Origin: Mycobacterium saskatchewanense
Lineage (GTDB): Bacteria; Actinomycetota; Actinomycetes; Mycobacteriales; Mycobacteriaceae
DNA: 64,000 bases
Direction: 5' to 3'
NCBI RefSeq assembly: GCF_010729105.1
Contig: NZ_AP022573.1
Location: 1,426,001-1,490,000, forward strand
Position numbers and translations under genes: made by a program. Positions within the stretch are counted from its first letter, which is position 1. The number at the start of each line of letters is the position of its first letter. A model generated the notes under the pieces. The model saw nothing but the letters and a program-made list of their open reading frames with translations. It had not been told where the DNA came from and did no database searches. Positions 41,317 to 61,372 of the stretch are shown one piece after another.

Positions 41317-42228
41317 TCAGCTGATCTTCAAAATTCCGCGCGCGCCGACGCTTTCCACTGATCTGGCCGCGGCACGATTGGCCTCCGTGGCGGCGACCTC
41401 GATAGGGTCACCCTCTGCCAGTCTCGCTGCAAACACGCCGTTGAAATTATCGCCCGCGCCCGTTGTGTCGACGACGTCGACCTCGACCGGTTCGATGTGG
41501 ACCGGATGCATACCCGGTCGGCATACGACGACGCCTTCACCGCCCATCGTCACCACGACCGGCGCTCTGGTGTACTCGCATACACCCATGGCTGCCGAGC
41601 GAATGTCGCTGAAATCGACGCCTACTCGCGTGGCGAGTTGACGGCACTCCCCCGAGTTGGGGGTCAGAATGGGTCTGTAGGCAAGCGCTTCGAGCACCTC
41701 GTCGATCGGCGGCGCGGGGTTGAGAACACACGTGGCACCGATCAGACTGGCATACTTCACCGCGGCCAGAACCGCTTCACCGGCTATCTCGGTGCTGATG
41801 AGGACGCAGTCACATGGCCGGATCTCCGACCGCAGACTTTCGGTGACCGCGCGGGCGCTGACCTCCGCGTTGGCTCCCGCCCCGACGGCTATCTGGTTCT
41901 CACCCGATTCGTCGACGACAATCAACGCCAGCCCGGTACTGGTGCCGTCGCATCGATTCACGCGTTGCGTGTCGACCTGGCAGGAATTCAGATCCGCCAG
42001 CGCCAGTTGGCCGTTCGCATCATTTCCCACCGCGCCGATGAGCACCACATGGGCGCCCGCGCGGGCGGCAGCGACCGCAGCGTTGGCGCCCTTGCCACCA
42101 CCATGATGCTCGGCATGATCACCGACAACCGTCTCGCCCGGGTTCGGCAGGCGTCTCGTCTTGATCACCACGTCGACGTTGATCGCTCCGACCACGTACA
42201 CCGTTGGCCGCGATGTCGTCTCAACCAT
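41317..42228 (-). CDS. rbsK: Ribokinase (PfkB family)
   Basis: A 303-residue sugar kinase. VVGAINVDVVIKTRRLPNPGET is the ribokinase N-terminus (substrate-binding NxD), HHGGGKGANAAVAAARAGA is the GGKGAN motif, and VDVVDTTGAGDNFNGVFAARL is the PfkB active-site motif with the catalytic base Asp. The family phosphorylates ribose at O5. It follows the LacI gene by six bases on the same strand. In this island it would return ribose from the nucleoside hydrolase to ribose-5-phosphate for the nearby PRPP synthetase. Confidence 0.9.
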   Translation of the reverse strand: MVETTSRPTVYVVGAINVDVVIKTRRLPNPGETVVGDHAEHHGGGKGANAAVAAARAGAHVVLIGAVGNDANGQLALADLNSCQVDTQRVNRCDGTSTGLALIVVDESGENQIAVGAGANAEVSARAVTESLRSEIRPCDCVLISTEIAGEAVLAAVKYASLIGATCVLNPAPPIDEVLEALAYRPILTPNSGECRQLATRVGVDFSDIRSAAMGVCEYTRAPVVVTMGGEGVVVCRPGMHPVHIEPVEVDVVDTTGAGDNFNGVFAARLAEGDPIEVAATEANRAAARSVESVGARGILKIS

Positions 42229-42234
42229 GGCGGG

Positions 42235-43275
42235 TTACCTGTTCGGTGGCGCGACCGAGTCGCGCACCATCATTTCGGTCGGCAGCAACGGGGGAAGCTG
42301 GCCCGCACCGTCTCCCGCCATCAGCTCGAAGAGCAGCGTCGCCGCCTGCTGGCCCATGTCCCGGGCGGGCTGGCGGACCGTTGTGAGCCGGGGTGTCAGC
42401 AACGAGACGAAGGGAATGTCGTCGAATCCGACAACGCTCAGCTCCGACGGCACCGCGATGCCCGCCGACCGGCAATACTCGAGGACACCGACGGCCATGA
42501 GGTCGTTGGCACATAGGAGGGCAGTGGGGCGCTGTTTCATCGGCACACTCAGCGCCGCCTTGCCCAATTCCCATCCGGACTGCTGACGGTAGTTGCCCCA
42601 ATAGACCGGTACGCCGTCCGGATTCAGCCCGGCAGCCGCTATCGCCTCCCGGTATCCCGACAGGCGCTGCTGCGTCGTCCAGAGTGATTCGGGGCCGGCG
42701 ATGATGGCGAGATTTCGATGCCCCGCGTTGGTGACCAACTGCGCGATCTCTCGGGCGCCACGTCGGTTGTCCGACACGATAGCGGGCAGATCGTCGAAGC
42801 CGGGCACGAACTCGTCCACCAACACGACGGGGCCTTGACGGGTGAGTTCGACCAACGAGCTGGCCAGTGTGCGCGACCCCGCCAGGTAGACGATGCCGTT
42901 CAGACGCTGGCTGCGCAGCAACCGCCCGTTGAACGACTCTCCGTCTGAGGTGGCCTCGGGCGCACAAAGGACCACGAGGCCACCGTTATCTGAGACCACT
43001 TGCTCCACACCTTCGACAAGCAGGGCGAAGAACTGATTAGAAAGTTCGGGCACGACCAGCCCGATGTTGGGCGAAGAACGCTTCTTGAGCCCACGCGCCG
43101 CTTCGTTAGGCGCATAGTTGAGCACCCGAACGGCATCGAGGACGCGGGCCCGCCGGCTCTCCGCGACCGGACCGCTGTCGTTGAGCACATAGCTGACAGT
43201 GCTGAGCGACACGCCAGCATGGCGCGCAACATCTTTCATTGTCGGGCGTCGGGCTGTATTCACTGGAGTTGACAT
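42235..43275 (-). CDS. LacI-family transcriptional regulator
   Basis: A 346-residue repressor. TMKDVARHAGVSLSTVSYVLND is the DNA-binding helix-turn-helix, RARVLDAVRVLNYAPNEAARGLKK contains the hinge helix, and a periplasmic-binding-protein-like ligand domain follows (IGLVVPELSNQFFALLVEG, ALLCANDLMAVGVLEY). The ATG at 43275 leaves a ten-base gap after the upstream gene; a GTG at 43308 is the alternative. LacI proteins bind palindromes with a central CG, which fits the TAGAAACGTTTCTA-like sites across the island. Its ligand may be a ribose- or base-derived metabolite. Confidence 0.92.
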   Translation of the reverse strand: MSTPVNTARRPTMKDVARHAGVSLSTVSYVLNDSGPVAESRRARVLDAVRVLNYAPNEAARGLKKRSSPNIGLVVPELSNQFFALLVEGVEQVVSDNGGLVVLCAPEATSDGESFNGRLLRSQRLNGIVYLAGSRTLASSLVELTRQGPVVLVDEFVPGFDDLPAIVSDNRRGAREIAQLVTNAGHRNLAIIAGPESLWTTQQRLSGYREAIAAAGLNPDGVPVYWGNYRQQSGWELGKAALSVPMKQRPTALLCANDLMAVGVLEYCRSAGIAVPSELSVVGFDDIPFVSLLTPRLTTVRQPARDMGQQAATLLFELMAGDGAGQLPPLLPTEMMVRDSVAPPNR

Positions 43276-43285
43276 CTTACTGCGG

Positions 43286-44086
43286 TCAGGCTGTTTTCGC
43301 CGAGCCACGCCCAGCCCCGTACCGGCCGCTGGTCCAGCTAAGCAACGACACCCAGAGAGTCTGGTAGTGGTCCCAGGCGAGGAACTCCGGTGGGGCCCAA
43401 TGCGATGCCAGATCGGAGGTGAATGCAGTCACTCGTCCGGCCCCGTACGTTCCCACTACCAGCAAAGGGTCGTTCCGGTAGCGCGCGATGACTTCGGTGT
43501 CGGGCTTGGCCACAACCCGGTTGTAACCCAGCAATACCGGCCATTGGGCCGGCGTGTCGCCCAGGGCATCGTGGTCCGGCAGATCCAATTCCGCGACTGC
43601 GCCTTCCGGCACTTCGATCCTGTCATCGTGGTCGAGCAGCTTGACCGGCAAGACATCGGCCAGTGGACTCATCCCATAGCGTCCCCGACCGTCGATTCCC
43701 GTGAACGACAGGTAGCCGCCGACCATTAGCATCCCCCCGCCGCGATGGACATATTCGGCAAGCAGCGACAGCCGGTTCACCGTCGGTCTCGATCGGAGAA
43801 ACGTGTCATCGGTGAGTAGGAATGTGTTGGCACCGACGTCGCTGATGACCACGACGTCGTAATCCTGAAGGTCGTCCATGCTCGTCGGGAACTTGCTCGA
43901 GACCTCGTGGCCGCGCGTGTACGTCACATCGATGCCACCGTCGGAGATGGCCTTCAGGAACTCGCCAGCGCCCTCTTCGTATTCCGTGGAATGGAAGTGG
44001 TCGAAACCCTTCATGTGGATCGTGTGTTTAATCCACGACTCGCCGACCACCAAAGCGCGAACTTGACCGAAACTCTTTTTGCTCAT
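43286..44086 (-). CDS. Class I glutamine-amidotransferase-like (PF07090/ThuA-like) protein
   Basis: A 266-residue flavodoxin-like protein from MSKKSFGQVRALVVG (GGAG upstream). It shows VLVV-type strand one with GESWIKHTIHMKGFDHF, DVVVISDVGANTFLL, EYVHRGGGMLMVGGYLSFTG and YGAGRVTAFTSDLASHW. This matches the PF07090 glutamine-amidotransferase-like group. The nucleophilic Cys of true amidotransferases is absent at the elbow (VGGYLS), so amidotransfer is doubtful. First gene of a probable operon with lacI-type and rbsK genes. Confidence 0.78.
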   Translation of the reverse strand: MSKKSFGQVRALVVGESWIKHTIHMKGFDHFHSTEYEEGAGEFLKAISDGGIDVTYTRGHEVSSKFPTSMDDLQDYDVVVISDVGANTFLLTDDTFLRSRPTVNRLSLLAEYVHRGGGMLMVGGYLSFTGIDGRGRYGMSPLADVLPVKLLDHDDRIEVPEGAVAELDLPDHDALGDTPAQWPVLLGYNRVVAKPDTEVIARYRNDPLLVVGTYGAGRVTAFTSDLASHWAPPEFLAWDHYQTLWVSLLSWTSGRYGAGRGSAKTA

Positions 44087-44430
44087 CGAGACTCCAGGTG
44101 TCGAGGGTGCAATGACAACACGTCGCAGAGGCATCTCCGCGGAGGACTAGCGAGTAACGTTCGGCCCCTGGGCGATTGGGACCGCACCCTCATGGTCATC
44201 ATGCGGTGTGGAATCCTCGCCGGTCCCCCGCGATCCACTGGAAAGGCAGTCGCCCGAAGTCCACTCCGCCTCCCACATCTCTCAGGGCCCTCTCCCGATC
44301 GGATCCAAACGCGCAGAGCGCGTCGCCTTACGGCGAGCTTGGCCAACAACGCCCGCTTCGTCGATGCCGAGGACCTAATGGGCCGGCCCTTCGCGCATGG
44401 ACTATCAGCCGACGGCGACGGCCACAAGGT

Positions 44431-44444
44431 TAGTATCGTTTCTA
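44431..44444. promoter_or_regulatory. LacI-type operator site 2 (TAGTATCGTTTCTA)
   Basis: The right half GTTTCTA is a perfect match to the consensus. It lies in the 736-base divergent gap 44087-44822, which holds no convincing gene, upstream of the GATase-like/lacI/rbsK unit and of the ADH gene. Confidence 0.6.
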
Positions 44445-44750
44445 TCGTAAGTGAGTGCGGCGCGCCGGGTCAAGGCGACGGAGATTTCAAGCCGCCAGCC
44501 CTCTCCGGAAGATTCGCACGCGTGCGGACCTGGTTAGGGCGTGGCATTGAACTGCAGGATAGATGACGTTCCGAACGGGTTTCGCCATCGCCCCTCTGTA
44601 AGGCCGTCCTCGACCCACTGGCCGTCCGAGTCGCGCGGCCCGGCTCCCAGCCACGCCGAACCGCGCCCCGGAGATCGTGATCCCGGGCCTAAAAACGGAT
44701 CTCGGGCGGCGGCGATCGCCCGAGCCGAGGACAGGCGGTACCCAGCAGGA

Positions 44751-44764
44751 TATAATCGTTTCTG
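44751..44764. promoter_or_regulatory. LacI-type operator site 3 (TATAATCGTTTCTG) over a -10 box
   Basis: The site includes TATAAT (44751-44756), a consensus -10 for the ADH gene at 44823, so binding would occlude RNA polymerase. A weak GGACAG -35 lies 17 bases upstream. Confidence 0.6.
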
Positions 44765-44822
44765 ACTTCACTTTCCGCAAAGGACTTCCCTGGCCGGCAA
44801 ACGACCGCGAAGAAGGATTTCA

Positions 44823-45863
44823 ATGACGACCGTTTCGGCGTATGCCGCCACCTCGGCCACCGAACCGCTGACCAAGACCACCATCACCCGGCGCGCGCCC
44901 GGGCCCCGCGACGTGGTGATCGATATCAAGTTCGCCGGTATCTGCCACTCCGACATCCACGTCGCGAAAGCCGAGTGGGGACAGCCGAACTATCCGATGG
45001 TGCCCGGTCACGAGATCGCCGGCATCGTCACCGAAGTCGGCTCCGAGGTCAGCCGGTACACGCCTGGAGACCGAGTCGGGCTGGGTCTCATATCCGACTC
45101 GTGCCGCCAATGCAGCAGCTGTCTCGCCGGGCTCGAGCAGTACTGCAAGGCTGGGCTGACACCGACCGTCAACTCGATCGGCAGGGACGGGCAGCCAAAC
45201 CAGGGTGGTTACAGCGAGGGGATCGTCGTTGACGAGAACTTCGTCGTGCGCATCCCCGACTCGCTGCCGCTGGACAAGGCGGCGCCGCTGCTGTGCGCGG
45301 GCATCACGCTATATTCCCCGTTGCGGCACTGGAAGGCCGGCGAGGACACCCGGCTGGCGATCATCGGCCTGGGCGGCCTGGGCCACATGGGCGTCAAGCT
45401 CGGCGCGGCGATGGGCGCCGAGGTGACCGTGCTGTCGCAGTCGCTGAAGAAGATGGAAGACGGGCTGCGCCTGGGCGCCACGCACTATCACGCGACGTCG
45501 GACCCCGACACCTTCACCAAGCTGCGCGGCAGCTTCGACCTGATCCTGAACACCGTCTCGGCCAACCTGCCGCTTGGCGACTACCTCAACTTGTTGGACA
45601 TCGGCGGCACGCTGGTCGAATTGGGCATCCCGGAGCATCCTATGGAAGTGCCGGCCGCGACGTTGGCGTCGGGCCGGCGCACTCTGTCCGGATCACAGGT
45701 CGGCAGCATCGCCGAGACCCAGGAGATGCTGGACTTCTGTGCCGAGCACGACGTGACGCCCGAGATCGAGCTTATTGAAGCCGATTACATCAACGAGGCC
45801 TACGAGCGCGTGCTGGCCAGCGACGTGCGCTACCGCTTCGTCATCGACATCTCAAGCTTGTGA
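44823..45863 (+). CDS. Zinc-dependent NAD(P) alcohol dehydrogenase, AdhC-like
   Basis: A 346-residue medium-chain dehydrogenase. [29 protein letters not shown] carries the catalytic Zn Cys, His and Glu. [15 protein letters not shown] is the structural Zn loop and [22 protein letters not shown] the Rossmann motif. It is closely similar along its whole length to M. tuberculosis AdhC (Rv3045), a cinnamyl-alcohol-dehydrogenase-type enzyme, but its island context suggests a paralogue with another substrate. GAAGGA precedes the ATG and a LacI-type site covers the promoter. Confidence 0.92.
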
Positions 45864-45867: not shown

Positions 45868-46548
45868 TCACAGCGTGTCCTGATCGATCAAACTGCGTCC
45901 GAGCAGGTAGACCTTGCGAAGGTCTTCTCCCGTGTAGGACTTCGCCGCCAGATCGGTCAACGGGGCCCGCGCATTCACTGCGACGGTGTTCGGTAACCAT
46001 TGGAAAAGGGCGACGTCGGAGGAAGAATCGCCATAGGCGACGCATTGCCGGGGGCTGAGCCCCCATTGTGCAAGCACGTGCTGGGTGATCAACAACTTGT
46101 CTTCGGCCTGCAGCGTCGAGTCCGCTGTCACCCGCTCGCCCAATCGGATGTCCGAGCCGAACGTGGCATGCACCCCCCAGCGCTCAAGTCGCCTCACGAA
46201 GAAGTGGGGCGACTGAGAGATGACGATGCTTCGCTCCCCTCGCTGGTCGATGTCGTCGAACACCTCGCGCAGACCCTCCATCCACATCGCGTCTTCGAAG
46301 GCCTGGTCTACTTGCTCCTCGGTTACGCCCTCCCACAGCTGCAGCGCCCGCTCCCAGAAGGTGATCTCGCCGACCTCGCCGCCCACCCATTCCTGCTCGA
46401 GGGTTATGGCGTCAGCCAGCCGTCCCATGTGTCGGCAGAGCTCAACAGTGGCGGCACCCATCATCAGCGTGCCGTCCATGTCGAACACATGCAGGAGTCG
46501 CCCCACTCCCAGGGGGGGTATTGATTGTCGTGGTTGCAATATGTCCAT
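45868..46548 (-). CDS. HAD-IB phosphatase, island copy 1
   Basis: A 226-residue HAD hydrolase. HVFDMDGTLMMGAATVEL is motif I (nucleophile Asp23, acid Asp25), SIVISQSPHFFVRRLERWG motif II, a Lys in EDKLLIT motif III and YGDSSSDVALF motif IV. The helical cap after motif I is of the SerB-like type. The start aligns with that of copy 2 at 55608, to which it is about 60 percent similar by eye. In an operon behind two NAMPT-like genes, dephosphorylation of a mononucleotide to a nucleoside is my inference. Confidence 0.85.
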   Translation of the reverse strand: MDILQPRQSIPPLGVGRLLHVFDMDGTLMMGAATVELCRHMGRLADAITLEQEWVGGEVGEITFWERALQLWEGVTEEQVDQAFEDAMWMEGLREVFDDIDQRGERSIVISQSPHFFVRRLERWGVHATFGSDIRLGERVTADSTLQAEDKLLITQHVLAQWGLSPRQCVAYGDSSSDVALFQWLPNTVAVNARAPLTDLAAKSYTGEDLRKVYLLGRSLIDQDTL

Positions 46549-46620
46549 GTCAGTTGTCTTGGGGATGCCGAACGAGCCATCCACCGTGGTCAGCTGATTC
46601 GAGATTCTTGTTCCACCGCG

Positions 46621-48081
46621 TCAGGACGCGTCAGCCAACATGGCAGGTGTCGAACGCAGTGGCGCAATGGCTTCGGCGTAATAGCTCTCGGGCACTTCTT
46701 GCTCGCTGTGCGTGATCAACTCGCTGAAATCCCATTTCTTGAGCAGCTTGCCGTTGCGGAACACGGGCTGCATGACGTTCTCCTCCGGTGGGATGCTGTC
46801 GCGCCGCACCGTCTCGTACTCACCGTCGACATATCGCAGCGCGAGCCGGCCTCGCTTGGACTTCTTGATCGCGTCGCCGGTGGGCTGCTTGCTGATGTCG
46901 CGCCATTCACCGTTGACTTGGACGGCACTGGCCTTCTGCCCGAAGGCGCTGGTGTCACGGTTGCAGTGTTGCAACAAGCCGCCGCCCATGCCGAAGACCG
47001 CGTTCTCCGCAGAGAGTCCGCGCCGCTCCATTTCGGCGTAAATCAGCGGGAGGCTTTCCCGGGTGACACCGTCGCCCTGCACTGTCCGCACGAAATCCGG
47101 AAGCACCTTGAAACCCTTGCTGTTCGTGGTGCATCCGAAAGCGTCGATCAACCATTCGGTTGTATCGGCTGTCACCTGGACGACGTCGCCGGAGTCGGGG
47201 CGCACACCGACGAGTCCGGGGAAGTTGCGGACCACGTCGCGCAGTTCGCCGCCGATAATGTTCTTTACGGCGTTCTCATGGTCATAGGTGTCCGTCAACA
47301 GCAGGGCCATTCCATGCTTGGCGTGCACTTCGAGCATGTTGCGCATGGCGGCTGCTTCGTTCTCACGGCCCCATGCGCAGAAGCCGGCATGCTCGGCGTT
47401 TGGTCCTGAATTCGACGGCGCGACAGCGTTGTAGAACTCCTTGGCTGCGATGATGCCCGGGACGGTGTCGCTTTGCGAAAAATTGACGAGGTGCGCGAGG
47501 CCGCCGAGGGCGGCTGACTCCTGCGAGCTGACGCCACGAGCGCCGTAATCGTGCAGGCAGTGACGCAACACTTCCGGATGGTCCGACGTACGGGACAGCG
47601 CCTCTCTGATCACCTGCTTGGCAAGCCAGCTGATGGTTCCCACGGTGGTAGGGTACCAAACAGCGCGCAGCAAAGCGGTCTCGAAAAAGCTTGTGACCCA
47701 GTAGTATTTCGGATCGGTGTTGATGATCTGGACCAGCACGTTACGAGTGGGCACCACCAGGCCCTCGGGGACCGCCTCGATCTCCACCGGCAGAAAGCCG
47801 TCGTGGTCGTTGAGGATGCCGATCCAGTTCTCGCGGTTGAAATGCATGCCCTGTTCGCGCATGTAGTACTCGCCCTGGTCGATGTCCTCGAGCGTGATGG
47901 GCCGCATCAGATATTTGCGCAGGAACGCTTGTAAACCAACGAACATCGTGACGGGGAACTCCCCACCGCGCGATTCGATATAGCTCGAGACGTACTCCGT
48001 CCCCGGCGGGTACAACGGGTAGTGGCAGTGCTTGTAGTTGTCGGTGTTGATGATGATGTTGTCGTAGCTGTTGTGCGCCAT
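46621..48081 (-). CDS. NAMPT-like phosphoribosyltransferase 1
   Basis: A 486-residue protein of human-NAMPT length, starting MAHNSYDNIIINTDNYK. Key family residues are kept: Tyr16 (base stacking), HDYGARGVSSQE with Tyr179 (Phe in human) and Arg182, VNFSQSDTVPG with Asp205, AEHAGFCAWG with the phosphohistidine His231, RPDSGD with Arg294 and Asp296, and FGMGGGLLQ. NAMPT joins nicotinamide and PRPP to NMN. It lies 76 bases after copy 2 and ahead of a HAD phosphatase on the minus strand. The base may be nicotinamide or a related amide heterocycle. Confidence 0.9.
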   Translation of the reverse strand: MAHNSYDNIIINTDNYKHCHYPLYPPGTEYVSSYIESRGGEFPVTMFVGLQAFLRKYLMRPITLEDIDQGEYYMREQGMHFNRENWIGILNDHDGFLPVEIEAVPEGLVVPTRNVLVQIINTDPKYYWVTSFFETALLRAVWYPTTVGTISWLAKQVIREALSRTSDHPEVLRHCLHDYGARGVSSQESAALGGLAHLVNFSQSDTVPGIIAAKEFYNAVAPSNSGPNAEHAGFCAWGRENEAAAMRNMLEVHAKHGMALLLTDTYDHENAVKNIIGGELRDVVRNFPGLVGVRPDSGDVVQVTADTTEWLIDAFGCTTNSKGFKVLPDFVRTVQGDGVTRESLPLIYAEMERRGLSAENAVFGMGGGLLQHCNRDTSAFGQKASAVQVNGEWRDISKQPTGDAIKKSKRGRLALRYVDGEYETVRRDSIPPEENVMQPVFRNGKLLKKWDFSELITHSEQEVPESYYAEAIAPLRSTPAMLADAS

Positions 48082-48157
48082 GAGAAGTTCCTGTCTTTCG
48101 GCGTGATCGAAGTTTGACGAGCCTGCGAAGTGTGTGGCCAATTACCGAGGTGTGCGG

Positions 48158-49612
48158 CTATCCAGCCAGCGCCGCCGGGCGCGGTTGCGTGGATGTCTCA
48201 GCCGTATCGGCGTAATAGCTTGGCGGAGTGGGTAGTTCGCTTTGCTGAATCAGGTCGCTCATGCTCCACTCTCGAAGCAGCTTGCCGTTGCGGAATACAG
48301 GCGTCAACAGGTTCTCCTCGGCGGACACTTCGTCGCGCCGCACCGTGCGATACTCCCCATCCACCTTGCACAGCGCCAGCCGGCCAGCTTTCGAACGTTT
48401 CATCTGACTGCCCTTCGGGGCTTTGAAAACGTCGCGCCATTCGCCATTGACACACACCGCACTGGCCTTCATGCCGAAGTTCATGGAGTCGCGATCAACT
48501 TTCTGCAGCAGCCCACCGCCCATGCCGCACAGGACATTGTCGGCCGCCAGACCACGCCTCTCGAGCTCTGCGTAGAGGCTGACATAGGTGTCGAGCGTCA
48601 GCCCATCACCTTGAACGACGCGCATGAACGGCGGAAGAACGCGGTAGCCCTTGCCATTCGTCTCGGATCCGAAGCTTTCCATCAGGCTTTCGACGGTATC
48701 GGCCGGGACCATGATCGGGTCCCCGGAGTCGCAGCGGGCGATGACCAGGCCCCCGTAGTCACGGACCTCGGTCTTCAATTCCCGTCCGATGATGTTCTGC
48801 ACCGCATTGTCGTGATCGTAGGTGTCACAGAGCAAACCGATGGCCGGCGCGGAAAATTGCAGGAGCCGCCGGAACGTGGCCGCCTCCTGGTCTCGGCCCG
48901 CCGCTCCGATCGCGGCGTGCTCCAAGAACACAGCGGCGCCACTGGGTGGCGGGCCGTTGTACCACCGGCGCGACCCGATGTAACCGGGAACGTTGTCCGT
49001 CTGGTCGAAGTTGATCAGGTGCCCAACTCCCCCGAGGGCTGCCGACTCGAAAGAACTCACGCCACGGGCGCCGTAGTCATGAAGATAGATCCTGATCATC
49101 TCGGGGTGATCTGACGTCCTCTCGAGGAAGCCTCGAATGCGTTGTTTGGCGATCCAGCTCGTCGTGGCGACGCTCGACGGGTACCACACGGCACGCAGCA
49201 GCGCCGTTTCGATGAATCCGGTGACCCAATGGTATTTCGGATCGGTGTTGACGACCTGGACGAGCACGTTCCTCGTGGGAACGACGGTGCCTTCGGGCAC
49301 TGCCTCGATCTCTAACGGCAAGTAACCGCCGTGGTCGTTGAGCAGGTCGATCCAATTCTGTCGTTCGAACGGGATACCCATCGACGTGTGCACGTCGTGT
49401 GCTTCGTGAATGTCATCGATGGTGAACGGGTGCATGAGGTATTCACGCAGGAACGGTTGCAGGCCGGCGAACAGAACCGACGGGTAGATACCGCCCCGCG
49501 ACTCGATGTAACTCGAAACGTATTCGGTCCCTTCAGGATACATCCAAAAATGTGCGTTCTTGTAGCTGTCGACGTTGGTGATGATGTTGCCCGAATAGCT
49601 CTGCTGCGCCAT
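48158..49612 (-). CDS. NAMPT-like phosphoribosyltransferase 2
   Basis: A 484-residue paralogue, collinear with copies 1 and 3. Tyr17 (VDSYK), HDYGARGVSSFE with Tyr180 and Arg183, DQTDNVPG with Asp206, LEHAAIGAAG with His232, RCDSGD with Arg293 and Asp295, and CGMGGGLLQ are present. The Trp that follows the active-site His region in copy 1 (AWG) is AAG here. It is the first gene of a minus-strand unit with copy 1 and HAD 1. A LacI-type site lies 130 bases upstream. Substrate base unknown. Confidence 0.9.
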   Translation of the reverse strand: MAQQSYSGNIITNVDSYKNAHFWMYPEGTEYVSSYIESRGGIYPSVLFAGLQPFLREYLMHPFTIDDIHEAHDVHTSMGIPFERQNWIDLLNDHGGYLPLEIEAVPEGTVVPTRNVLVQVVNTDPKYHWVTGFIETALLRAVWYPSSVATTSWIAKQRIRGFLERTSDHPEMIRIYLHDYGARGVSSFESAALGGVGHLINFDQTDNVPGYIGSRRWYNGPPPSGAAVFLEHAAIGAAGRDQEAATFRRLLQFSAPAIGLLCDTYDHDNAVQNIIGRELKTEVRDYGGLVIARCDSGDPIMVPADTVESLMESFGSETNGKGYRVLPPFMRVVQGDGLTLDTYVSLYAELERRGLAADNVLCGMGGGLLQKVDRDSMNFGMKASAVCVNGEWRDVFKAPKGSQMKRSKAGRLALCKVDGEYRTVRRDEVSAEENLLTPVFRNGKLLREWSMSDLIQQSELPTPPSYYADTAETSTQPRPAALAG

Positions 49613-52257: not shown

Positions 52258-53250
52258 TCAGAAGAGGTGATTCTTGCCGCCGAACACTTCGCTGACGGAA
52301 CGATCGGTGAAGATCCGTCGGATCGAGTCCGCCAGGAGCGGGGCGCAGGACACCACCTCGATCGTTGCTGGTGCACCCGGGCGCAGCGGGATGCTGTCGG
52401 TCACGACGATCCGCTCAAAGGGCGACCCTGCCAGATTCTCGTAGGCCCGGCCGCTGAGCACCGGATGCGTGACCGCCGCGAAAACCCTTCGCGCCCCGGC
52501 CCTCTTGACGGCCTCGCCCGCCGCGCACAGCGTTCCGGCGGTGTCGACGATGTCATCGACGATGATCGCGGTCTTGCCGCGAACATCCCCGATCACATGC
52601 ACAATCTCGGCCACCTGCTGATGTGGCCGCTCCTTGTCGAGAATCGCAAGGTCACCACCGATACGGGTGGCGAACTGCTTGTTCAGCTTCACCCTGCCCG
52701 CATCCGGCGCTACGACAACCAAATCGTCGTCCAGGCCGGCGAAGTGGTCGGCAAGCATCATCAACGCGGTCATGTGATCGACCGGGATGCCGAAGAAGCC
52801 TTGCAGCTGGCCGGCATGCAGGTCCATGGCCAGCACGCGATCGACACCGACCGCCTCGAGAGTGCGCGCGACCATGCGCGCCGAAATCGGCTCGCGGGGC
52901 GCAGATTTCTTGTCTTGACGCGAGTAGCCGTACCAGGGAGTCACCGCGACCACGCGATGCGCACTCGCGCCGACTGCGGCATCGATCATGATCAGCAATT
53001 CGAGTAACGCATCGTTCGCGTTGATGCCCGTCTGCGGATTTCCGCACATGGGTTGAATCAGGAAAACGTCCGCACCCCGGATGGACTCGTCGAAGCGGCA
53101 ATAGACCTCGTCGTTCGAGAAGGTCTTCAGGGTGATCGACCCGAGATCCACGCCGAGCTGACCGGCGATATCTGCGGCCAGGGTCGGATTGGCCCGGCCG
53201 GAGAAGAGCAACAACTGCTTCTCGTAGCCGACCCGCAGCGACGCAGTCAT
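52258..53250 (-). CDS. Ribose-phosphate pyrophosphokinase (accessory PRPP synthetase)
   Basis: A 330-residue class I PRPP synthetase from MTASLRVGYEKQLLLFSGRANP. FSNDEVYCRFDESIRGADVFLIQP, YGYSRQDKKSAPREPISARM, MDLHAGQLQGFFGIPVDH, the flexible loop LDKERPHQQ and the PRPP loop IIVDDIVDTAGTL are all intact, so activity is expected. It differs clearly from the mycobacterial housekeeping PrsA as I know it (for example ANDALLEL and SAPREP). It makes PRPP from ribose-5-phosphate and ATP, which is what three NAMPT-like enzymes need. Two LacI-type sites lie upstream. Confidence 0.92.
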   Translation of the reverse strand: MTASLRVGYEKQLLLFSGRANPTLAADIAGQLGVDLGSITLKTFSNDEVYCRFDESIRGADVFLIQPMCGNPQTGINANDALLELLIMIDAAVGASAHRVVAVTPWYGYSRQDKKSAPREPISARMVARTLEAVGVDRVLAMDLHAGQLQGFFGIPVDHMTALMMLADHFAGLDDDLVVVAPDAGRVKLNKQFATRIGGDLAILDKERPHQQVAEIVHVIGDVRGKTAIIVDDIVDTAGTLCAAGEAVKRAGARRVFAAVTHPVLSGRAYENLAGSPFERIVVTDSIPLRPGAPATIEVVSCAPLLADSIRRIFTDRSVSEVFGGKNHLF

Positions 53251-54174: not shown

Positions 54175-55611
54175 ATGACCGGATCTGACCCCGCAGCCAA
54201 CTGCGGTGTCCGGCACGCCCGCCGGTTCCCGGTCATCGAGCGGCGTTCGATCGACTGGATCACACCTGGCGAACGTCACGGCACTGTGTCGGCCGTGAGT
54301 CCGCTCTTCTTCATCGCAAATTGGAACTTCTTCACGGTGGCACTTGGGTTCTCCGGGCCGGCCCTGGGCCTCAGCGTCGGTTGGTCGATAGCTGCCTCGA
54401 CGCTCGGATTGTTGACCGGCACGTTTTTCACGGCGTGCCATGCTACGCAGGGTTCTCGTTTGGGCTTGCCGCAGATCATTCAGTCGCGAGCCCAATTCGG
54501 GTTCTACGGCGTCATTGTCATCGTCGCCATGGCGTTGGCTTGCTATCTGGCGTTCGGAGTGGTCTTCACGATTCTCACGGCGCACGGGCTGGCCGAGATC
54601 TTCGGCTGGTCACCTCTGATCACCGGGCTGGTGGTCAATCTCGTTGGCGGCGCATTCGCGATCGCCGGCCATGACCATCTGCACCGCCTGTCGCGATTCA
54701 CCATCTACGCGACGGTTCCGCTGATGCTTGCCTTCACCGTCGCCCTCTTCATGGGAAAGGCCGGAGGCGACGCGCCGTCCGGCGGCCACGGTTTCGCGGC
54801 GAAGGCCTTCTTCACGGTGTTCGCCGTCTCGGCGGCTTGCAACATGGCCCTGGCCCCTGTCGTCTCCGACTACACCCGCTATCTACCTGTAGCCACGCCG
54901 TCTCGCTGGCTGATCGCCAGTGTCTATGCGGGCGCCGGCATCTCCGCCTTGTGGCTGATGGCCGTGGGCGCGTGGTTGTCGGCCTCGTACCACGCCACGG
55001 ATGCGCTGGCGGCGCTGCACCTTGCTGGTGACAACGTCGTTCGTGGCTTCGGGGCGGTCTTGGTGTTGGCGTCGGCCATGACGCTGGTTGTGGGCATAGC
55101 GACCGCTGCCTACAGCGTCTCGCTCCAGTTCCTGACCGGTGCCGACTTGATTCGCCGTTTCACTCCGACTCGGTCGTTGCGAATCGCCGTCACTGTACTC
55201 ACGATCGTCATCTACCTCCTGGTGGCGCTCCCTTTCGGTAACCATGTGGTGGACGCCGCCAGCGACGCTTTGTCGATTCTCCTATTCCTGCTGGTGCCGT
55301 GGACGGCGATCAATCTTGTCGACTACTTCTTCATACGTCGAGGCGACTACGTGATCGGCGATCTATTCACTCCGGAGGGGGTGTACGGCGGCTGGTCGTG
55401 GCGCGGCTTGGTGGCCTACCTCCTGGGCTTCCTGGCCATGCTGCCTTTCGCGGCCTTGCCCTTCTGCACGGGTCCCCTCAGCGCGCTGTGGGGCGGAATC
55501 GACGTGTCCTGGCTGGCGGGCTTGATCGCCGCGGCTGTCGCCTACTTGATGCTCACGCGAGATCGCAGAACCGGCGCTGCCAGGCTAGGGGCCGACAGCG
55601 CTTCAGCCTAG
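54175..55611 (+). CDS. NCS1-family nucleobase/cytosine-type permease
   Basis: About 478 residues with twelve helices. The N-terminus has IERRSIDWITPGERHG, helix 1 reads FFIANWNFFTVALGFSGPALGLSVGWSIAA, and then GLPQIIQSRAQFGFYGVI and the late NLVDYFFIRRGDYVIGDLF follow, all typical of NCS1 purine/pyrimidine/hydantoin permeases. A GTG at 54154 is an alternative start; neither has a strong ribosome site. I infer it imports the N-heterocyclic substrate of the island. The stop overlaps the convergent HAD 2 stop by four bases. Confidence 0.9.
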   Translation: MTGSDPAANCGVRHARRFPVIERRSIDWITPGERHGTVSAVSPLFFIANWNFFTVALGFSGPALGLSVGWSIAASTLGLLTGTFFTACHATQGSRLGLPQIIQSRAQFGFYGVIVIVAMALACYLAFGVVFTILTAHGLAEIFGWSPLITGLVVNLVGGAFAIAGHDHLHRLSRFTIYATVPLMLAFTVALFMGKAGGDAPSGGHGFAAKAFFTVFAVSAACNMALAPVVSDYTRYLPVATPSRWLIASVYAGAGISALWLMAVGAWLSASYHATDALAALHLAGDNVVRGFGAVLVLASAMTLVVGIATAAYSVSLQFLTGADLIRRFTPTRSLRIAVTVLTIVIYLLVALPFGNHVVDAASDALSILLFLLVPWTAINLVDYFFIRRGDYVIGDLFTPEGVYGGWSWRGLVAYLLGFLAMLPFAALPFCTGPLSALWGGIDVSWLAGLIAAAVAYLMLTRDRRTGAARLGADSASA

Positions 55612-56300
55612 GGACGTCGGACGTCCTGTTCGGCCTGGTTCAGGTCCACCAGACTCCGCCCGAGACCGTACGCTTCCCGAAGGTCGTTGCCGACATACGA
55701 CCTCGCGGCGAGATCGGTCAGCGGCTCTCTAGCATTGACCCCGACCGTGTTGGGCAACCAGCTGAAAAGGGCAACATCGGATCTGGAGTCTCCGTACGCG
55801 ATGCAGTCTGTGGCGCTGAGTCCCCACAGCGCGAGGATTCCCCGGGTGATCGAGACCTTGTCCTCGGCCAGCAGTGTCGAGTTCGGCGCCACCGTCTCGC
55901 CGATCCGGATGTTCGAACCAAAGGTCGCGTGGGCTCCCCAGCGTTCGAGTCGCCTGACGAAGAAGTGCGGTGACTGTGAGATGACGATGCTTCGCTCACC
56001 ACGCCGGTGGATGTCGTCGAAGACTTCGCGGACGCCATGCATCCACATCGCAGCATCAAAGGCCCGGTCGACCTGGTCCTCTGTCACGTCGTGCCACAGC
56101 TCGAGCGCACGACTCCAGAAGGGGATCTCATCAATCTCCCCCCGCAGGTAGGCCTCCTCGATCTCCATGGCCTCGGCGAACCGACCGACGTACCGTGAAA
56201 GCTCCACGACTGCAGCGCCCATCAACAGCGTCCCGTCCATGTCGAAGACGTGCAGCAGCGGCCCAACGTCGATGGGTGGAATCGGTTGCAGTGGATGCAT
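55608..56300 (-). CDS. HAD-IB phosphatase, island copy 2
   Basis: A 230-residue paralogue of the gene at 45868, starting MHPLQPIPPIDVGPLLHVFDMDGTLLMG. The same four HAD motifs are present (DMDGTL, SIVISQSPH, EDKVSIT, YGDSRSDVALF). Differences cluster in the cap region (AEAMEIEEAYLRGEIDEIPFW against ADAITLEQEWVGGEVGEITFW), where HAD specificity usually lies. Convergent with the permease and divergent from the phosphotriesterase-like gene. Probable nucleotide or sugar phosphatase. Confidence 0.85.
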   Translation of the reverse strand: MHPLQPIPPIDVGPLLHVFDMDGTLLMGAAVVELSRYVGRFAEAMEIEEAYLRGEIDEIPFWSRALELWHDVTEDQVDRAFDAAMWMHGVREVFDDIHRRGERSIVISQSPHFFVRRLERWGAHATFGSNIRIGETVAPNSTLLAEDKVSITRGILALWGLSATDCIAYGDSRSDVALFSWLPNTVGVNAREPLTDLAARSYVGNDLREAYGLGRSLVDLNQAEQDVRRP

Positions 56301-56630: not shown

Positions 56631-57704
56631 ATGGACGCATCATCGGTGGAACGCGGTTCCGTGCAGGTGACCACCGTTTCAGGTCCTGTCCCGGCCGACG
56701 AGCTCGGCATGACGCTGACCCACGAGCATCTGGTCAGCGACTGGACACTACGTGCAGTCGAGCCGGAGGGCGGTGCCGAACGCAAGCTCTTCCACGGCCG
56801 CGTCGACGCTTCGATCAATTGGCTGCTGACCGATGACCCATGGTGCTGCCTCGACAACGGGCGTCAGGACGACACGGAGGCGATGATCGAGGAGCTGAGG
56901 CACTTCATCGACGCCGGCGGCACGACGATCGTGGATTGCACCAACGGCGATATCGGTCGAGATCCTCGGGGGCTGAAGGAAATCTCGGCGAGGACCGGAC
57001 TCAACGTCGTGATGGGCTCGGGTTGGTACATCCACCGCTTTCACGATGAACATAAGGCGTCCGCCGGCGCTGACGAACTTTGTGACGAGCTCGTGGACGA
57101 GTTCGAAAACGGAGTCGGCGGCACGGGAGTACGGCCCGGCATCATCGGGGAAATCGGCGTCTCCCCGAAGTTCACCGACGCGGAGAAGACCCGGCTGCGC
57201 GCGGCCTGTCGTGCCCAACACAGGCTCAGGGTCCCACTGTTCGTCCATCTGCCGGGCTGGCAGCGGCGAGCCTTCGAGGTGCTCGACATCGTGATGAAAG
57301 ACGAGGGCGTCGCGCCCGACGCGGTCGTGTTGTGTCACATGGATCCCTCGGGCGGCGACGTCGACTACCAGCGTTCCGTGGCCGAGCACGGGGTCTGGCT
57401 CGGATTCGACATGATCGGGATGCCCTACTACTACGCAGGAGAAGGCCAGTCGCCCGCACCGGACCAAACGGCTTGTGCCATTGCGGGATTGATTCGCGAC
57501 GGGTACGCCGCACAGATCCTGCTCAGCCACGACTTGGCCGCCAAGAGTATGTGGACCCGGAACGGAGGCAACGGCGTCGGATATGTGCCACGACTGTTCC
57601 TGCCGCGGCTGCAGCGCCATGGCGTGCCTGCGGAGGTCACCGCAGCGCTGCTCACCACCAATCCTCGGCAGCTGTTCACCGTTGCGCGCGAGGGGGCGTT
57701 GTGA
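56631..57704 (+). CDS. Phosphotriesterase-like (PHP/lactonase-type) metallohydrolase
   Basis: A 357-residue TIM-barrel amidohydrolase. Metal ligands are visible as TLTHEHL (His31, His33), IIGEIGVSP (Glu174 as the bridging residue in place of carboxylated Lys), FVHLPGW (His206), VVLCHMDPS (His236) and LLSHDLAAK (Asp301). This is the binuclear set of phosphotriesterase homologues, many of which are lactonases; a Glu bridge is found in PHP. The substrate could be a lactone, cyclic amide or phosphoester intermediate of the island pathway. Confidence 0.88.
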   Translation: MDASSVERGSVQVTTVSGPVPADELGMTLTHEHLVSDWTLRAVEPEGGAERKLFHGRVDASINWLLTDDPWCCLDNGRQDDTEAMIEELRHFIDAGGTTIVDCTNGDIGRDPRGLKEISARTGLNVVMGSGWYIHRFHDEHKASAGADELCDELVDEFENGVGGTGVRPGIIGEIGVSPKFTDAEKTRLRAACRAQHRLRVPLFVHLPGWQRRAFEVLDIVMKDEGVAPDAVVLCHMDPSGGDVDYQRSVAEHGVWLGFDMIGMPYYYAGEGQSPAPDQTACAIAGLIRDGYAAQILLSHDLAAKSMWTRNGGNGVGYVPRLFLPRLQRHGVPAEVTAALLTTNPRQLFTVAREGAL

Positions 57705-57762: not shown

Positions 57763-57892
57763 GTAAGACCGCCATGCCCGCCGTTGGCTAGGATTCTGGG
57801 TAATCAGGCGCTCGAAGACCGAGTAGTCGCCAGCCGACAGAGCGAGACTCGAAACCATTCGATCTCTTGCGGTGGTGCTAGGAGGCAAGTGA

Positions 57893-58102: not shown

Positions 58103-58186
58103 GGACGGACCGGAACGGCATCGGTGACTCCCCGACGCGGCGGTGGCTCGGCCGGCGGACATCGGCATCTCAGGAAGGTATTTCAG

Positions 58187-59626
58187 ATGGGTGGATCCTC
58201 GCTCTGGCGCAACATGGCGGTGAACGCGGACATCAACAAGAACGGGATGTACGCCATGTACCCGGAAGGCACGGAGTACATCTCCGCGTACCTCGAAGCT
58301 CGTGGCGGTCCTTTCGGCGCAACGCTTTTCGTTGGGCTTCAGGCGTTCCTACTCGAATACCTGTCGCGTCCCATCACCGTTGAGGACGTCCAGGAAGCCG
58401 AGCGCGTCGTCCACGGGCATGGCTCCCGATTCAATCGGCAGGCGTGGCTCGACATCGTCAACGACTACGACGGATACCTGCCGCTGGAGATCGAGGCCGC
58501 TCCCGAGGGCACGGTCGTACCGACGCGCAACGTCCTGCTGCAGGTCGTAAACACGGATCCCCGGTTCCCCTGGCTGCCGAGCTACATCGAGTGCGCATTG
58601 CAGCGGGCGCTGTGGTACCCGAGCACCGTCGGGACGACGAGCTGGATTTGCAAGCAGGCGGTTCGGGGGGCGTTGGAACGGACGTCGGATCATCCCGAGT
58701 TGCTCAGGCTGTACCTCCACGACTTCGGCGCGCGAGGCGCGAACACATTCGAGTCGGCGGCCCTCGGCGGTATGGCTCACATGGTGAACTTCGACCGGTC
58801 GGACACGGTGCCCGCCTACATCGCTGCGTCGCAGTACTACAACGCGGCGTACCCGGGTGCCGTCAACCTACTGTGTGAGCACTCCAATGTGTCGGCATTC
58901 GGTCCTGACGGTGAGGCCGACTTCTTCCGCCAGCTACTCAGCAACACCAACGACGCCGCGATCGCGTTCCTCGTCGACACCTACGACCAGGACAACTGTG
59001 TGCGGAACGTCATCGGAAAGGAGTTGCGCGACGAAATTCTTGCCTTCCCGGGGCTGGTCGGCATCCGGTGCGACTCCGGGGACCCGGTGACAAATCCCGT
59101 CGACGTCGTCGAAGACCTGATGGAGAGCCTGGGCTCCTCGAGAACCGCGAAGGGTTTCAAAGTGCTACCCCCGAACGTCCGCGTGGTGCAGGGCGATGGA
59201 CTGAACGTGAACACGTTCCGCAGACTCTATGCCGAGCTGGAGCGGCGCGGGCTGGCCGCGGACAATGTGCTGTGCGGGATGGGAAGTGGACTCTTGCAGG
59301 AGGTGAATCGCGACACGTTGCACTTCGGTTACAAGGCCAACGCGGCCCGGATCAACGGCACCTGGCGTGACATCTCCAAGCGCCCGAAAGCTAACGCCAT
59401 CAAGCACTCCAAGGCCGGTCGCCTGGCGCTGCAGTACGTCGACGGCGACTACCGCACCGTCCCCCGCGACTCGATACCGCCCGAAGAGAACGTCCTGCAA
59501 CCGGTGTTCCGGGATGGCAAGATTCTCTCGGTCTGGGATTTCACGGACCTGATCGAACGCAGCGAGCGGCCTACGCCGGCGTACTACTACGAGGATCTTC
59601 CTGAGGACCTGCAAGCCGCCTCGTGA
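58187..59626 (+). CDS. NAMPT-like phosphoribosyltransferase 3 (altered base pocket)
   Basis: A 479-residue paralogue from MGGSSLWRNMAVNADINK (AGGAAGG upstream). The catalytic His232 (CEHSNVSAFG), Phe180, Arg183, Asp206 and RCDSGD (Arg294, Asp296) are kept. The stacking Tyr (human Tyr18, Tyr17 in copy 2) is Asn17 here, the following His is Met21, and the FGxGGGLLQ loop is CGMGSGLLQ. PRPP chemistry should therefore work, but the base site differs, so a base other than nicotinamide is likely. It is followed by an LLM enzyme in the same unit. Confidence 0.9.
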   Translation: MGGSSLWRNMAVNADINKNGMYAMYPEGTEYISAYLEARGGPFGATLFVGLQAFLLEYLSRPITVEDVQEAERVVHGHGSRFNRQAWLDIVNDYDGYLPLEIEAAPEGTVVPTRNVLLQVVNTDPRFPWLPSYIECALQRALWYPSTVGTTSWICKQAVRGALERTSDHPELLRLYLHDFGARGANTFESAALGGMAHMVNFDRSDTVPAYIAASQYYNAAYPGAVNLLCEHSNVSAFGPDGEADFFRQLLSNTNDAAIAFLVDTYDQDNCVRNVIGKELRDEILAFPGLVGIRCDSGDPVTNPVDVVEDLMESLGSSRTAKGFKVLPPNVRVVQGDGLNVNTFRRLYAELERRGLAADNVLCGMGSGLLQEVNRDTLHFGYKANAARINGTWRDISKRPKANAIKHSKAGRLALQYVDGDYRTVPRDSIPPEENVLQPVFRDGKILSVWDFTDLIERSERPTPAYYYEDLPEDLQAAS

Positions 59627-59707
59627 CACGACGAGTACCTTCGCCGCACGGATGGATGGAACGTCTGCGGCCGAACCGAATGAATCGATGAGTTAAGGAC
59701 ATACGAT

Positions 59708-60805
59708 ATGGCACTCAAGTTTTGGGTTACGACTCCCTTCTTCTACCCGGACATGAACCGTCCATGGTCGGAACTCCTCAACGACATGTTGAGCATCGTC
59801 GACGCCGCGGAAGACCTTGGCTTCGAAGGCATCACAATCAACGAGAACCTGTTCCAGAACTACGTCACGAACCCGTCTTCGCTGGCCTTCAGCGCAGTTG
59901 CGGCGGCACGAACGAAACGCCTGCGGATTATGCCGGGCGTTGTGGTACTGCCCTATTACCACCCGCTCCTGATCGCCTCGGAGATGAGCCTCCTAGACCA
60001 TTTGGCACCCGGGCGCATGGGTATCGGAGTCGCACGCGGCGGTAGCAGGTACCAGTTGGACCGCATCGGGGTGGACCCTGCGAAGGCGCGCGCGATCTAC
60101 GAGGAATCACTCGAGATCATCAGGCGCGTGTGGGTCGAGGACGACGTGAGTTACGACGGGCAATTCTTCTCCTTCCCACCAACCACCATCGTTCCGAAGC
60201 CGGTGACGAAGCCGCACCCCAGCATCTGGGTCGCGTCCCAAAGCGTAGAAGGGGCACAGAAGGTCGCACGCGAGGGCCTGAATCTGATCACGGCGCCCAA
60301 CTACGGCAGCTTCGAACCTTACGGGGACCTCGAAGCGCTTCTGCAGAGTTACAACGACGCAGCCGAGGCGAGCGAGCATCCGCGCGGCGAGGTCATGGCG
60401 CTGCGCCACACGTGGGTGGGTCACACGGAGGAGGAAGCACTCGAATACTTCGATGATTTCCTCAACGAATACAACTTCTACATCGCATTCGTGAAGGACG
60501 AGGGCAACAGGGCGAGCCGCGAGGACCGCCTGGCTCCGCGCGGCCTGGGGGACAAAGACCGCAAATACATCGTGGGTGGTCGCGTCATCCCGGAGACCGA
60601 ACGGTTCTCGCGCGAAAAATTAGACGAGAACTACTCCGATCCCATCCTCACCACGCCCGACAAGATGATCGAACGGTTCAAGACCTACGAGAAGCTGGGT
60701 GTCGACCACCTGTCGTGCCTCATCGCGGTGGGCATGCCCCGTGACGCGATCATCAAGCAGATGGAGCTGATGTCCAAGGAAGTCCTGCCGGCGTTCGCCG
60801 AATAG
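59708..60805 (+). CDS. LLM-class flavin-dependent monooxygenase
   Basis: A 365-residue luciferase-like barrel. MALKFWVTTPFFYPDM, AAEDLGFEGITINENLFQ, RIMPGVVVLPYYHPLLIASEMSLLDHLAPGRMGIGVARGG (the classic LLM motif with the non-prolyl cis peptide region), KPHPSIWVASQSVEGAQKVA and a C-terminal IERFKTYEKLGVDHLSCLIA are present. Members use FMNH2 or F420. It follows NAMPT 3 by 81 bases. It could hydroxylate or cleave the heterocycle, free or ribosylated. Confidence 0.9.
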   Translation: MALKFWVTTPFFYPDMNRPWSELLNDMLSIVDAAEDLGFEGITINENLFQNYVTNPSSLAFSAVAAARTKRLRIMPGVVVLPYYHPLLIASEMSLLDHLAPGRMGIGVARGGSRYQLDRIGVDPAKARAIYEESLEIIRRVWVEDDVSYDGQFFSFPPTTIVPKPVTKPHPSIWVASQSVEGAQKVAREGLNLITAPNYGSFEPYGDLEALLQSYNDAAEASEHPRGEVMALRHTWVGHTEEEALEYFDDFLNEYNFYIAFVKDEGNRASREDRLAPRGLGDKDRKYIVGGRVIPETERFSREKLDENYSDPILTTPDKMIERFKTYEKLGVDHLSCLIAVGMPRDAIIKQMELMSKEVLPAFAE

Positions 60806-61033
60806 AAGCGCACACCGGCGCCGCGCAAACCGTGTGTCGGCGGAATCTGTCCACACTGCCCATGAACTCGACGCTTGGTCGAGACGACGTTAGGACAAGC
60901 GCATGCTCCTCGCGGGAGAGCCCGCACCGCTCGACGGTGTTCCCCGATACGCATTCTCGGAGATGGCATCACGACTTCGCCGTCTCTGCCATGATCTGCT
61001 GTCGGCTTCCGACCATCTCGGCGTGGGGGGTTG

Positions 61034-61372
61034 ATGCAGATGCTGTACGAAGTCCGTGAGTACATGGTCATACCGGGACGGCTTTCCACGGTAATCGAGT
61101 TGTTCAACGAGGTGACCCTCGGCTTGTTCGCCAAGCACGAGATGGACCTCGTTCACATCGGCCGGACCTGGATCGGCCAGGAGTCGCTGAACGAACTGGT
61201 CTACACGATGCGGTTCAACGACCTTGCCGAGATGGAAAGCAAGTGGACAGCGTTCCTGCAGGATCCGGAATGGATCGCCGCGATTACCGCGAAAGAGGCG
61301 GACGGACCGCTCTACCAATCCATCAGACGACGGCTGCTCGACCCGGGCCCTTTCGACGTCAAGGCTGGGTGA
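61034..61372 (+). CDS. NIPSNAP-family protein
   Basis: A 112-residue ferredoxin-like-fold protein. MLYEVREYMVIPGRLSTVIELFNE, HIGRTWIG and the central LVYTMRFNDLAEMESKWTAFLQDPEWIAAI match NIPSNAP domains (R-x-Y-x-x-x-P-G and W-x-x-F-x-x-D-P-E-W). Such dimeric barrels often accompany monooxygenases and may bind small hydrophobic molecules. The start follows a GGGGGG stretch. It lies at the right end of the island, 228 bases after the LLM gene. Confidence 0.82.
   Translation: MQMLYEVREYMVIPGRLSTVIELFNEVTLGLFAKHEMDLVHIGRTWIGQESLNELVYTMRFNDLAEMESKWTAFLQDPEWIAAITAKEADGPLYQSIRRRLLDPGPFDVKAG

Follow-up and report, generated by a model that had tools for sequence, protein, structure and literature searches.

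A mycobacterial island with three NAMPT-like genes as one variant of a catabolic cassette predicted to phosphoribosylate pyridine-type rings

In the single-contig 6.0 Mb genome of Mycobacterium saskatchewanense we analysed a window of 64,000 nucleotides (positions 1426001-1490000), of which positions 41317-61372 hold a gene island with a GC content of 62.7%, against 67.2% across the remaining window. Its left part carries genes for a ribokinase-like kinase (RK), a LacI-family regulator and a GATase1-like protein (GAT) on the minus strand, an alcohol dehydrogenase (ADH; plus), the HAD-IB phosphatase HAD1 with NAMPT1 and NAMPT2 (minus), a nucleoside hydrolase (IUNH) and an old yellow enzyme (OYE; both plus) and a phosphoribosyl pyrophosphate (PRPP) synthetase (Prs; minus). 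The right part continues with an NCS1 permease (plus), a second phosphatase, HAD2 (minus), a phosphotriesterase-family hydrolase (PTE; plus) and NAMPT3, an LLM monooxygenase and a NIPSNAP-family protein (all plus). Every gene that an earlier note on this DNA had named was found and matches its family (Pfam, NCBIfam), while the LacI, GATase1-like (PF07090) and NIPSNAP genes are parts of the island beyond that list. NAMPT1-3 each combine PF04095 with PF18127 and score above the PRK09198 cut-off of 405. From the comparisons below, the island is one variant of a catabolic cassette scattered through many actinomycetes and some proteobacteria, whose NAMPT-like enzymes are predicted to act on pyridine-type rings.

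Relatives were collected by scanning GTDB genomes with a NAMPT alignment; the best 80 of 149 relatives gave 77 loci that were kept, and with five plasmid loci (L007-L011) these make up a set of 82, which pocket residues divide into 15 canonical loci (L011, L075-L088) and 67 others. Neighbours were counted by tblastn (E<=1e-15) with references taken from cassette loci, which favours cassette genes, in loci of varying length (three of the 67 are shorter than 6 kb). Six core genes recur in the 67 non-canonical loci (HAD in 57, LacI in 45, Prs in 44, GAT in 42, RK in 37 and IUNH in 32), with all six together in 18, whereas each of them was found in none of the 15 canonical loci. When the count is limited to loci that extend 5 kb or more to each side of NAMPT, two or more core genes accompany 38 of 40 NAMPTs of the main pocket type, and none accompanies any of 11 canonical ones. 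The earlier note had proposed looking for co-occurrence of the NAMPT-like, HAD-IB, IUNH and Prs genes; the same set does recur in other genomes and, since these loci were fetched with NAMPT as the sole query, the grouping is more than chance. A lack of such co-occurrence, which the note had named as one half of what would refute its reading, was thus not observed. Conversely, an NMNAT-Nudix gene adjoins NAMPT in 10 of 15 canonical loci and in 0 of 67 others (E<=1e-6). The window likewise holds no homologue of the NMNAT-Nudix protein of L011 at this threshold, in agreement with the earlier note, which had seen no NMN adenylyltransferase in the island.

Because it was the pocket residues (in human numbering, with pocket and catalytic roles that we take to be those of human NAMPT) that decided which NAMPTs were labelled canonical and which main catabolic, independent checks on these labels come from the tree and the neighbours. 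Among 89 aligned full-length NAMPTs (six pieces shorter than 380 aa were excluded), 15 are canonical, with F193, S-[IV]-P-A-A at 241-245 and A or S at 275. The main catabolic type, with Y193 and P243-N244, accounts for 61 (G242 in 57, L275 in 53), and 13 carry other pocket changes. E246, H247, R311 and D313 are present in 89/89 and D219 in 85/89. The canonical nicotinamide pocket (F193, S[IV]PAA) is found in none of the island proteins: NAMPT1 has Y/SGPNA, NAMPT2 Y/AAVFL and NAMPT3 N18 with F/VNLLC. In a quick tree that carries a long-branch warning, and from which 28 rows more than 90% identical to a kept row were excluded, the branch parting canonical from other NAMPTs has an SH-aLRT value of 100. 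Thus, although the island proteins share family and the residues R311, D313, E246 and H247 with NAMPT/NadV nicotinamide salvage (PRK09198), they differ from it in lying in a separate clade, in their changed base pocket, in lacking an NMNAT-Nudix neighbour and in sitting with phosphatase, Prs, ribokinase and ring-opening enzymes. On these comparisons, both the existence of the cassette and its distinctness from NAD salvage are well supported. The five NAMPTs of this genome have five different pockets, which suggests five substrates. A title in the reference list of PMC6642140, on inhibitor phosphoribosylation by human NAMPT, fits the use of other pyridines by this family.

The island is not a lone case: one version of the cassette lies on a plasmid of a Rhodococcus that grows on pyridine. 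The regions of Arthrobacter crystallopoietes pLDW-10 (L007), R. pyridinivorans P23 (L008) and Rhodococcus sp. PD04 (L106) contain genes for LLM, NIPSNAP, aldehyde dehydrogenase (ALDH), HAD-IB, GATase, LacI, ribokinase-like kinase and Prs, and further for amidohydrolase, tautomerase, NAMPT and flavin reductase; succinate semialdehyde dehydrogenase (SSADH) and FdhF are found in L008 and L106, and IUNH in L007 only. Strain PD04, whose LLM version of the cassette is the plasmid-borne one, is reported to use pyridine as sole carbon and nitrogen source for growth (PMC11256795).

Compared with these plasmid clusters, the window holds NAMPTs of the catabolic clade, HAD-IB, Prs, LacI, RK and GAT, plus IUNH (Table 1). 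Its Prs is 79-82% identical to those of L007/L008 and only 42% to the other Prs copy of the same genome; a dedicated Prs of this kind would fit the use of one PRPP per ring. The OYE and PTE genes are not core, since OYE lies near only 1 of 59 main-pocket-type NAMPTs and PTE is found in 10 of the 67 loci. Matches of 62-72% to the window PTE occur in L023, L036, L042, L046, L051, L052, L060 and L068-L070. An amidohydrolase (at least 60%) is likewise found in 10 loci and the two occur together only in L036, so that PTE may replace the amidohydrolase in the window's version. Layouts resembling the window are seen in Actinomycetospora (L023) and Pseudonocardia dioxanivorans (L038, L060), and genes of the NAMPT1 and NAMPT2 types occur together in L023, L042, L046 and L052, the second NAMPT of the last three being partly cut by a contig end.

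Table 1. Features of the island and loci with the alternative module. Positions are those of the window. Probable true starts are 49612 (NAMPT2), 58187 (NAMPT3), 53250 (Prs), 56300 (HAD2) and near 51246 (OYE).
Feature	Position	Strand	Family evidence and matches
Ribokinase-like PfkB kinase (RK)	41317..42228	-	PF00294; TIGR02152 ribokinase 263.9 bits, below cut-off 299.65; 49-50% vs L007/L008 RK
LacI-family regulator	42235..43308	-	PF00356 + PF13377; 56-60% vs L007/L008 LacI
GATase1-like protein, cysteine-free	43286..44134	-	PF07090; 62-63% vs L007/L008; 0 Cys
Zn-dependent alcohol/aldehyde dehydrogenase (ADH), accessory	44823..45863	+	PF08240, PF00107; closest NCBIfam model Ahr, below cut-off
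HAD-IB phosphatase 1 (HAD1)	45868..46584	-	TIGR01488 68.5 bits, cut-off 45; 50-60% vs cluster HADs
NAMPT1, main catabolic pocket type (Y193, SGPNA)	46621..48141	-	PRK09198 516.9 bits; 78% vs L007 NAMPT
NAMPT2, altered pocket (Y193, AAVFL)	48158..49612	-	PRK09198 496.7 bits, scored on longer open reading frame reaching 49882
Nucleoside hydrolase (IUNH)	50230..51171	+	PF01156; 29-32% vs IUNHs of L007/L009
Old yellow enzyme family oxidoreductase (OYE), accessory	51246..52238, start approximate	+	PF00724; 66% match in L038
Dedicated PRPP synthetase (Prs)	52258..53250	-	TIGR01251 346.9 bits, cut-off 113
NCS1-family permease	54175..55611	+	PF02133
HAD-IB phosphatase 2 (HAD2)	55608..56300	-	TIGR01488 62.8 bits; 68% vs HAD1
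Phosphotriesterase-family hydrolase (PTE), possible amidohydrolase stand-in	56631..57704	+	PF02126
NAMPT3, most altered pocket (N18, VNLLC)	58187..59626	+	PRK09198 474.3 bits
LLM flavin-dependent monooxygenase	59708..60805	+	PF00296; 72% vs LLM of L007 and L008
NIPSNAP-family protein	61031..61372	+	56% vs L007 NIPSNAP
25 NAMPT loci with PNPOx-like and cupin genes	L009, L010, L014, L017-L022, L025, L026, L028-L032, L035, L039, L045, L049, L055, L056, L058, L059, L061		

Within the genus the family is rare. Of 297 genomes sampled there, this one alone, with five copies, has a NAMPT-family protein (E<=1e-100), and the other 296 gave no match at that threshold; a class-level draw gave 4 of 394. 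In an order-level draw of 397 genomes NAMPT was present in four, the same four had a GAT of at least 62% identity (next best 54%), and three of them had the LLM (E<=1e-80). This is not an independent find, since two or more of these four appear to be genomes already represented among the loci (L017, L048, L050). The closest relative of NAMPT1 within the tree set, at 85%, is from Williamsia, and we infer that the island was acquired. Among plasmids, NAMPT2 as a tblastn query matched 52 records; an LLM of 71-72% identity is found in six, all of which also hold a NAMPT.

The cassette core is accompanied by one of two modules that would attack the ring. Of the 67 loci, 18 have an LLM gene (at least 60%), 25 have a PNPOx-like gene, none has both and 24 have neither (Fisher p 4e-5), and on the NAMPT tree (44 rows) the module switches at least eight times. 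The 18 LLM loci also contain ALDH (16), NIPSNAP (14), amidohydrolase (10), flavin reductase (8) and PTE (5). Genes for F420-dependent glucose-6-phosphate dehydrogenase (FGD) or F420 biosynthesis are present in 12 of the 25 PNPOx loci, in contrast to 0 of the 18 LLM loci. One such dehydrogenase lies above the equivalog cut-off (423.8 vs 420) and a second just below it (415.9), an FbiB protein is above its model, and a CofGH protein is above the CofG and CofH models and below the fused one (998 vs 1018). As the PNPOx protein itself falls below the F420 model cut-offs, its use of F420 is suggested by these neighbours. L009, a locus of this F420 type, also holds two ALDHs, CoA transferases and acyl-CoA dehydrogenases. 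The PNPOx/cupin loci (Table 1) are a candidate reductive pyridine route.

The LLM module can be compared with trigonelline catabolism. Trigonelline is N-methylnicotinate, in which the nitrogen is already quaternary, and trigonelline monooxygenase attacks this N-methylpyridinium beside the nitrogen. The TgnA-TgnE system has a two-component flavin reductase/LLM attack with an ALDH, which the LLM version of the cassette would share; 4 of 101 LLM homologues carry the source name flavin-dependent trigonelline monooxygenase. The flavin reductase partner of the TgnAB type is absent from the window and present in 8 of the 18 LLM loci. A similar flavin reductase-LLM-ALDH-NIPSNAP module lies near noeB on S. 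meliloti pSymA (L119:7030-10806), with no ribose core in the 17 kb shown around it, and another, without NAMPT, in Arthrobacter dokdonellae (L120). Since pSymA presumably carries trigonelline catabolism, the L119 module is likely a trigonelline-type cluster. A quaternary substrate of this kind would need no ribose core, in contrast to the substrates of the cassette, which has one; the core would thus be present where the substrate has no quaternary nitrogen.

Taken together, we consider it somewhat more probable than otherwise that the NAMPT-like enzymes phosphoribosylate a pyridine-type ring nitrogen. This likely makes the ring easier to open, and the ribose is then probably recycled to PRPP. 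The chemistry of the cassette is a prediction, in which the NCS1 permease would bring in an N-heterocycle and NAMPT would convert it with PRPP to a quaternary pyridinium ribotide. The LLM with reduced flavin, as a flavin-peroxide, would attack the electron-poor ring next to the nitrogen to give an N-formyl enal, while in other genomes the F420H2 module would reduce the pyridinium instead. Dehydrogenases and PTE or amidohydrolase would complete the chain, HAD-IB would strip the phosphate, and the nucleoside hydrolase and/or the GATase1-like protein would release ribose, from which ribokinase and Prs would regenerate PRPP; LacI would respond to a product of the ribose type. Each of the five NAMPTs, three in the island and two at other places in the genome, would have its own kind of ring to act on. 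The ribotide as the common substrate would best explain how one core feeds two unrelated ring chemistries. The earlier note had proposed a temporary ribose handle on an imported heterocycle, on which OYE, LLM, ADH and PTE would act. This idea gains strong genomic support from a conserved gene set that is unlike NAD salvage and fits a handle with recycling, but the place it gave to OYE and PTE is not upheld, as these are outside the core, and the island is not alone. Because some LLM homologues are named for an enzyme of the N-methylpyridinium type, the handle probably has a chemical role as well, in making the ring nitrogen quaternary.

Several observations weigh against this account. D219, a carboxamide-binding residue, is retained in NAMPT1-3, so these may also accept nicotinamide. 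The trigonelline label is an automatic name on those 4 of 101 homologues; the window LLM is 31% identical to that of pSymA and passes none of 25 listed NCBIfam cut-offs. IUNH and ribokinase are found in only 32 and 37 of the 67 loci, and the window IUNH is just 29-32% identical to those of L007/L009. Neither ring-attack module was found in the 24 loci noted above and no core gene in three (L050, L064, L070), in part from short contigs, and the PNPOx protein is below the F420 model cut-offs. Four enzymes encoded in the plasmid clusters L007/L008, namely flavin reductase, ALDH, amidohydrolase and tautomerase, have no close counterpart in the window. Beyond the window, the genome's top match is at 56% for ALDH (C1:1862999) and at 39% for amidohydrolase (C1:2812036), the flavin reductase search having covered the window. 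The paper on PD04 assigns no genes to its growth on pyridine (PMC11256795).

The strongest counter-evidence is a 2020 study of Arthrobacter sp. 68b, in which PyrA/PyrE, encoded in the pyr cluster of plasmid p2MP, reportedly act directly on pyridine and cleave its ring. The LLM of the cassette might likewise open free pyridine, in which case NAMPT and the phosphatase, hydrolase and PRPP genes would have a secondary task, for example removing pyridine nucleotides that arise accidentally or protecting the NAD pool while the cells grow on pyridines. The patchy occurrence of IUNH would agree with this, and L007, L008 and L106 hold the enzymes reported for the direct route, namely LLM, flavin reductase, ALDH and amidohydrolase, a full set of the 68b type of which the window holds the LLM alone. 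However, a secondary task leaves unexplained both the dedicated Prs in 44 of 67 loci and the pairing of this core with a non-LLM module in 25 of them, and an LLM of at least 71% identity is always found with NAMPT (6/6 plasmid records, 3/3 genomes). We regard direct opening as unlikely.

A locus for nucleoside salvage or catabolism, in which a nucleoside or modified base is the substrate and NAMPT acts on the released base, seems to us quite improbable. The IUNH, PfkB, LacI and NCS1 families do serve nucleosides and bases, and GATase1-like genes outside the cassette mostly adjoin LacI and/or PfkB, but NAMPT and HAD would then spend PRPP making what IUNH breaks, a ring-cleavage LLM is present in 18 of 67 loci, and it is pyridine itself that supports growth of PD04. 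Ordinary NAD salvage or turnover of pyridine nucleotides, with the additional NAMPTs as mere extra copies, has very little probability left: NAMPT1-3 do pass PRK09198 and keep R311, D313, E246, H247 and D219, yet plain salvage was rejected on neighbours (NMNAT-Nudix in 0/67 loci vs 10/15 canonical), clade and pocket, and the other 296 of 297 genus genomes have no NAMPT match at E<=1e-100. Least credible of all is a cassette that builds a pyridinium riboside or cofactor-like product without degradation, for although NAMPT and HAD could yield a riboside and 12 of the 25 PNPOx loci contain genes for FGD or for making F420, the neighbours are degradative (ALDHs, SSADH, amidohydrolase, FdhF, acyl-CoA dehydrogenases) and the ribokinase-Prs pair suggests that ribose is freed again.

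Returning to phosphoribosylation of the ring, a related branch may exist elsewhere in the same genome. The fourth NAMPT (Q191, N219), at C1:255457 (L089), is followed by genes for a protein like orotidine monophosphate (OMP) decarboxylase, a CinA/PncC-like protein and HAD-IB. OMP decarboxylase-like and CinA-like genes are also found with a NAMPT in L062, L063, L064 and L035; a HAD match adjoins them in L062 and L063, lies by the other NAMPT in L035 and was not found in L064. The HAD of L062, which is followed by a Prs, matches no NCBIfam model at E<=1e-10. Alone, the OMP decarboxylase-like protein is below the Pfam cut-off (23.3 vs 27), but its family profile matches solved OMP decarboxylases (E 4e-11), and the D, K and D residues of the DxxKxxxD stretch, which are catalytic in OMP decarboxylase, are conserved across the family. 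Its structure model shows alternating strands and helices (mean pLDDT 82.8). L089 looks like a deamidation and decarboxylation branch at the ribotide level, which would turn a pyridine carboxamide ribotide into the plain pyridinium ribotide, the CinA/PncC-like protein serving as the amidase. In L035, from a gammaproteobacterial metagenome-assembled genome, a main-type NAMPT with an F420-type module stands together with a second NAMPT with OMP decarboxylase-like and CinA-like genes, which gives the impression of a link between the two branches. In L089 a duplicate set with a broken NAMPT copy precedes that of the fourth NAMPT (L089:6552-12952; C1:252552-258952).

Whether these parts form a general ribotide-tethered route for N-heterocycles, with paralogous NAMPTs of different pockets, interchangeable oxidative (LLM and flavin) and reductive (F420H2) modules, a carboxamide feeder branch and ribose recycling to PRPP, we put at an even chance. 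It has long been asked how the unreactive pyridine ring is first attacked in aerobic bacteria; if NAMPT first makes the pyridinium, one step would explain both oxidative and reductive routes. Such a route would be the N-heterocycle counterpart of the CoA-thioester activation of benzenoid aromatics, and glycosyl activation would join the established means by which aromatics are made reactive. Genes annotated as nicotinate phosphoribosyltransferase in these loci would then be degradation genes, and a Y193/SGPN NAMPT with HAD-IB and Prs would serve as a sequence marker for heterocycle degraders. Among the titles and abstract openings listed in searches of open-licence papers (at most 20 per search) we found no link between NAMPT or phosphoribosylation and pyridine catabolism.

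The fifth NAMPT (N18, E191, N219) lies by an NCS1 permease and an NtaA/DmoA-family FMN monooxygenase (L090:6210-10437; C1:931710-935937), which makes L090 a second candidate heterocycle locus.

As for the GATase1-like protein, a role as a classical glutamine amidotransferase was rejected because it contains no cysteine. Its homologues outside the cassette adjoin LacI and/or PfkB genes in five of six loci (L109, L111-L114; not L110), the GAT of L114 itself being uncalled by the open reading frame caller, and the family may act on ribosides or sugars. In L111 the homologue is also beside a PTE.

The island is abutted on its left side by two neighbouring PPE-family genes (38094-40873) and on its right side by a GAF-ANTAR regulator (61486-62229), where the GC content is back to 68%.

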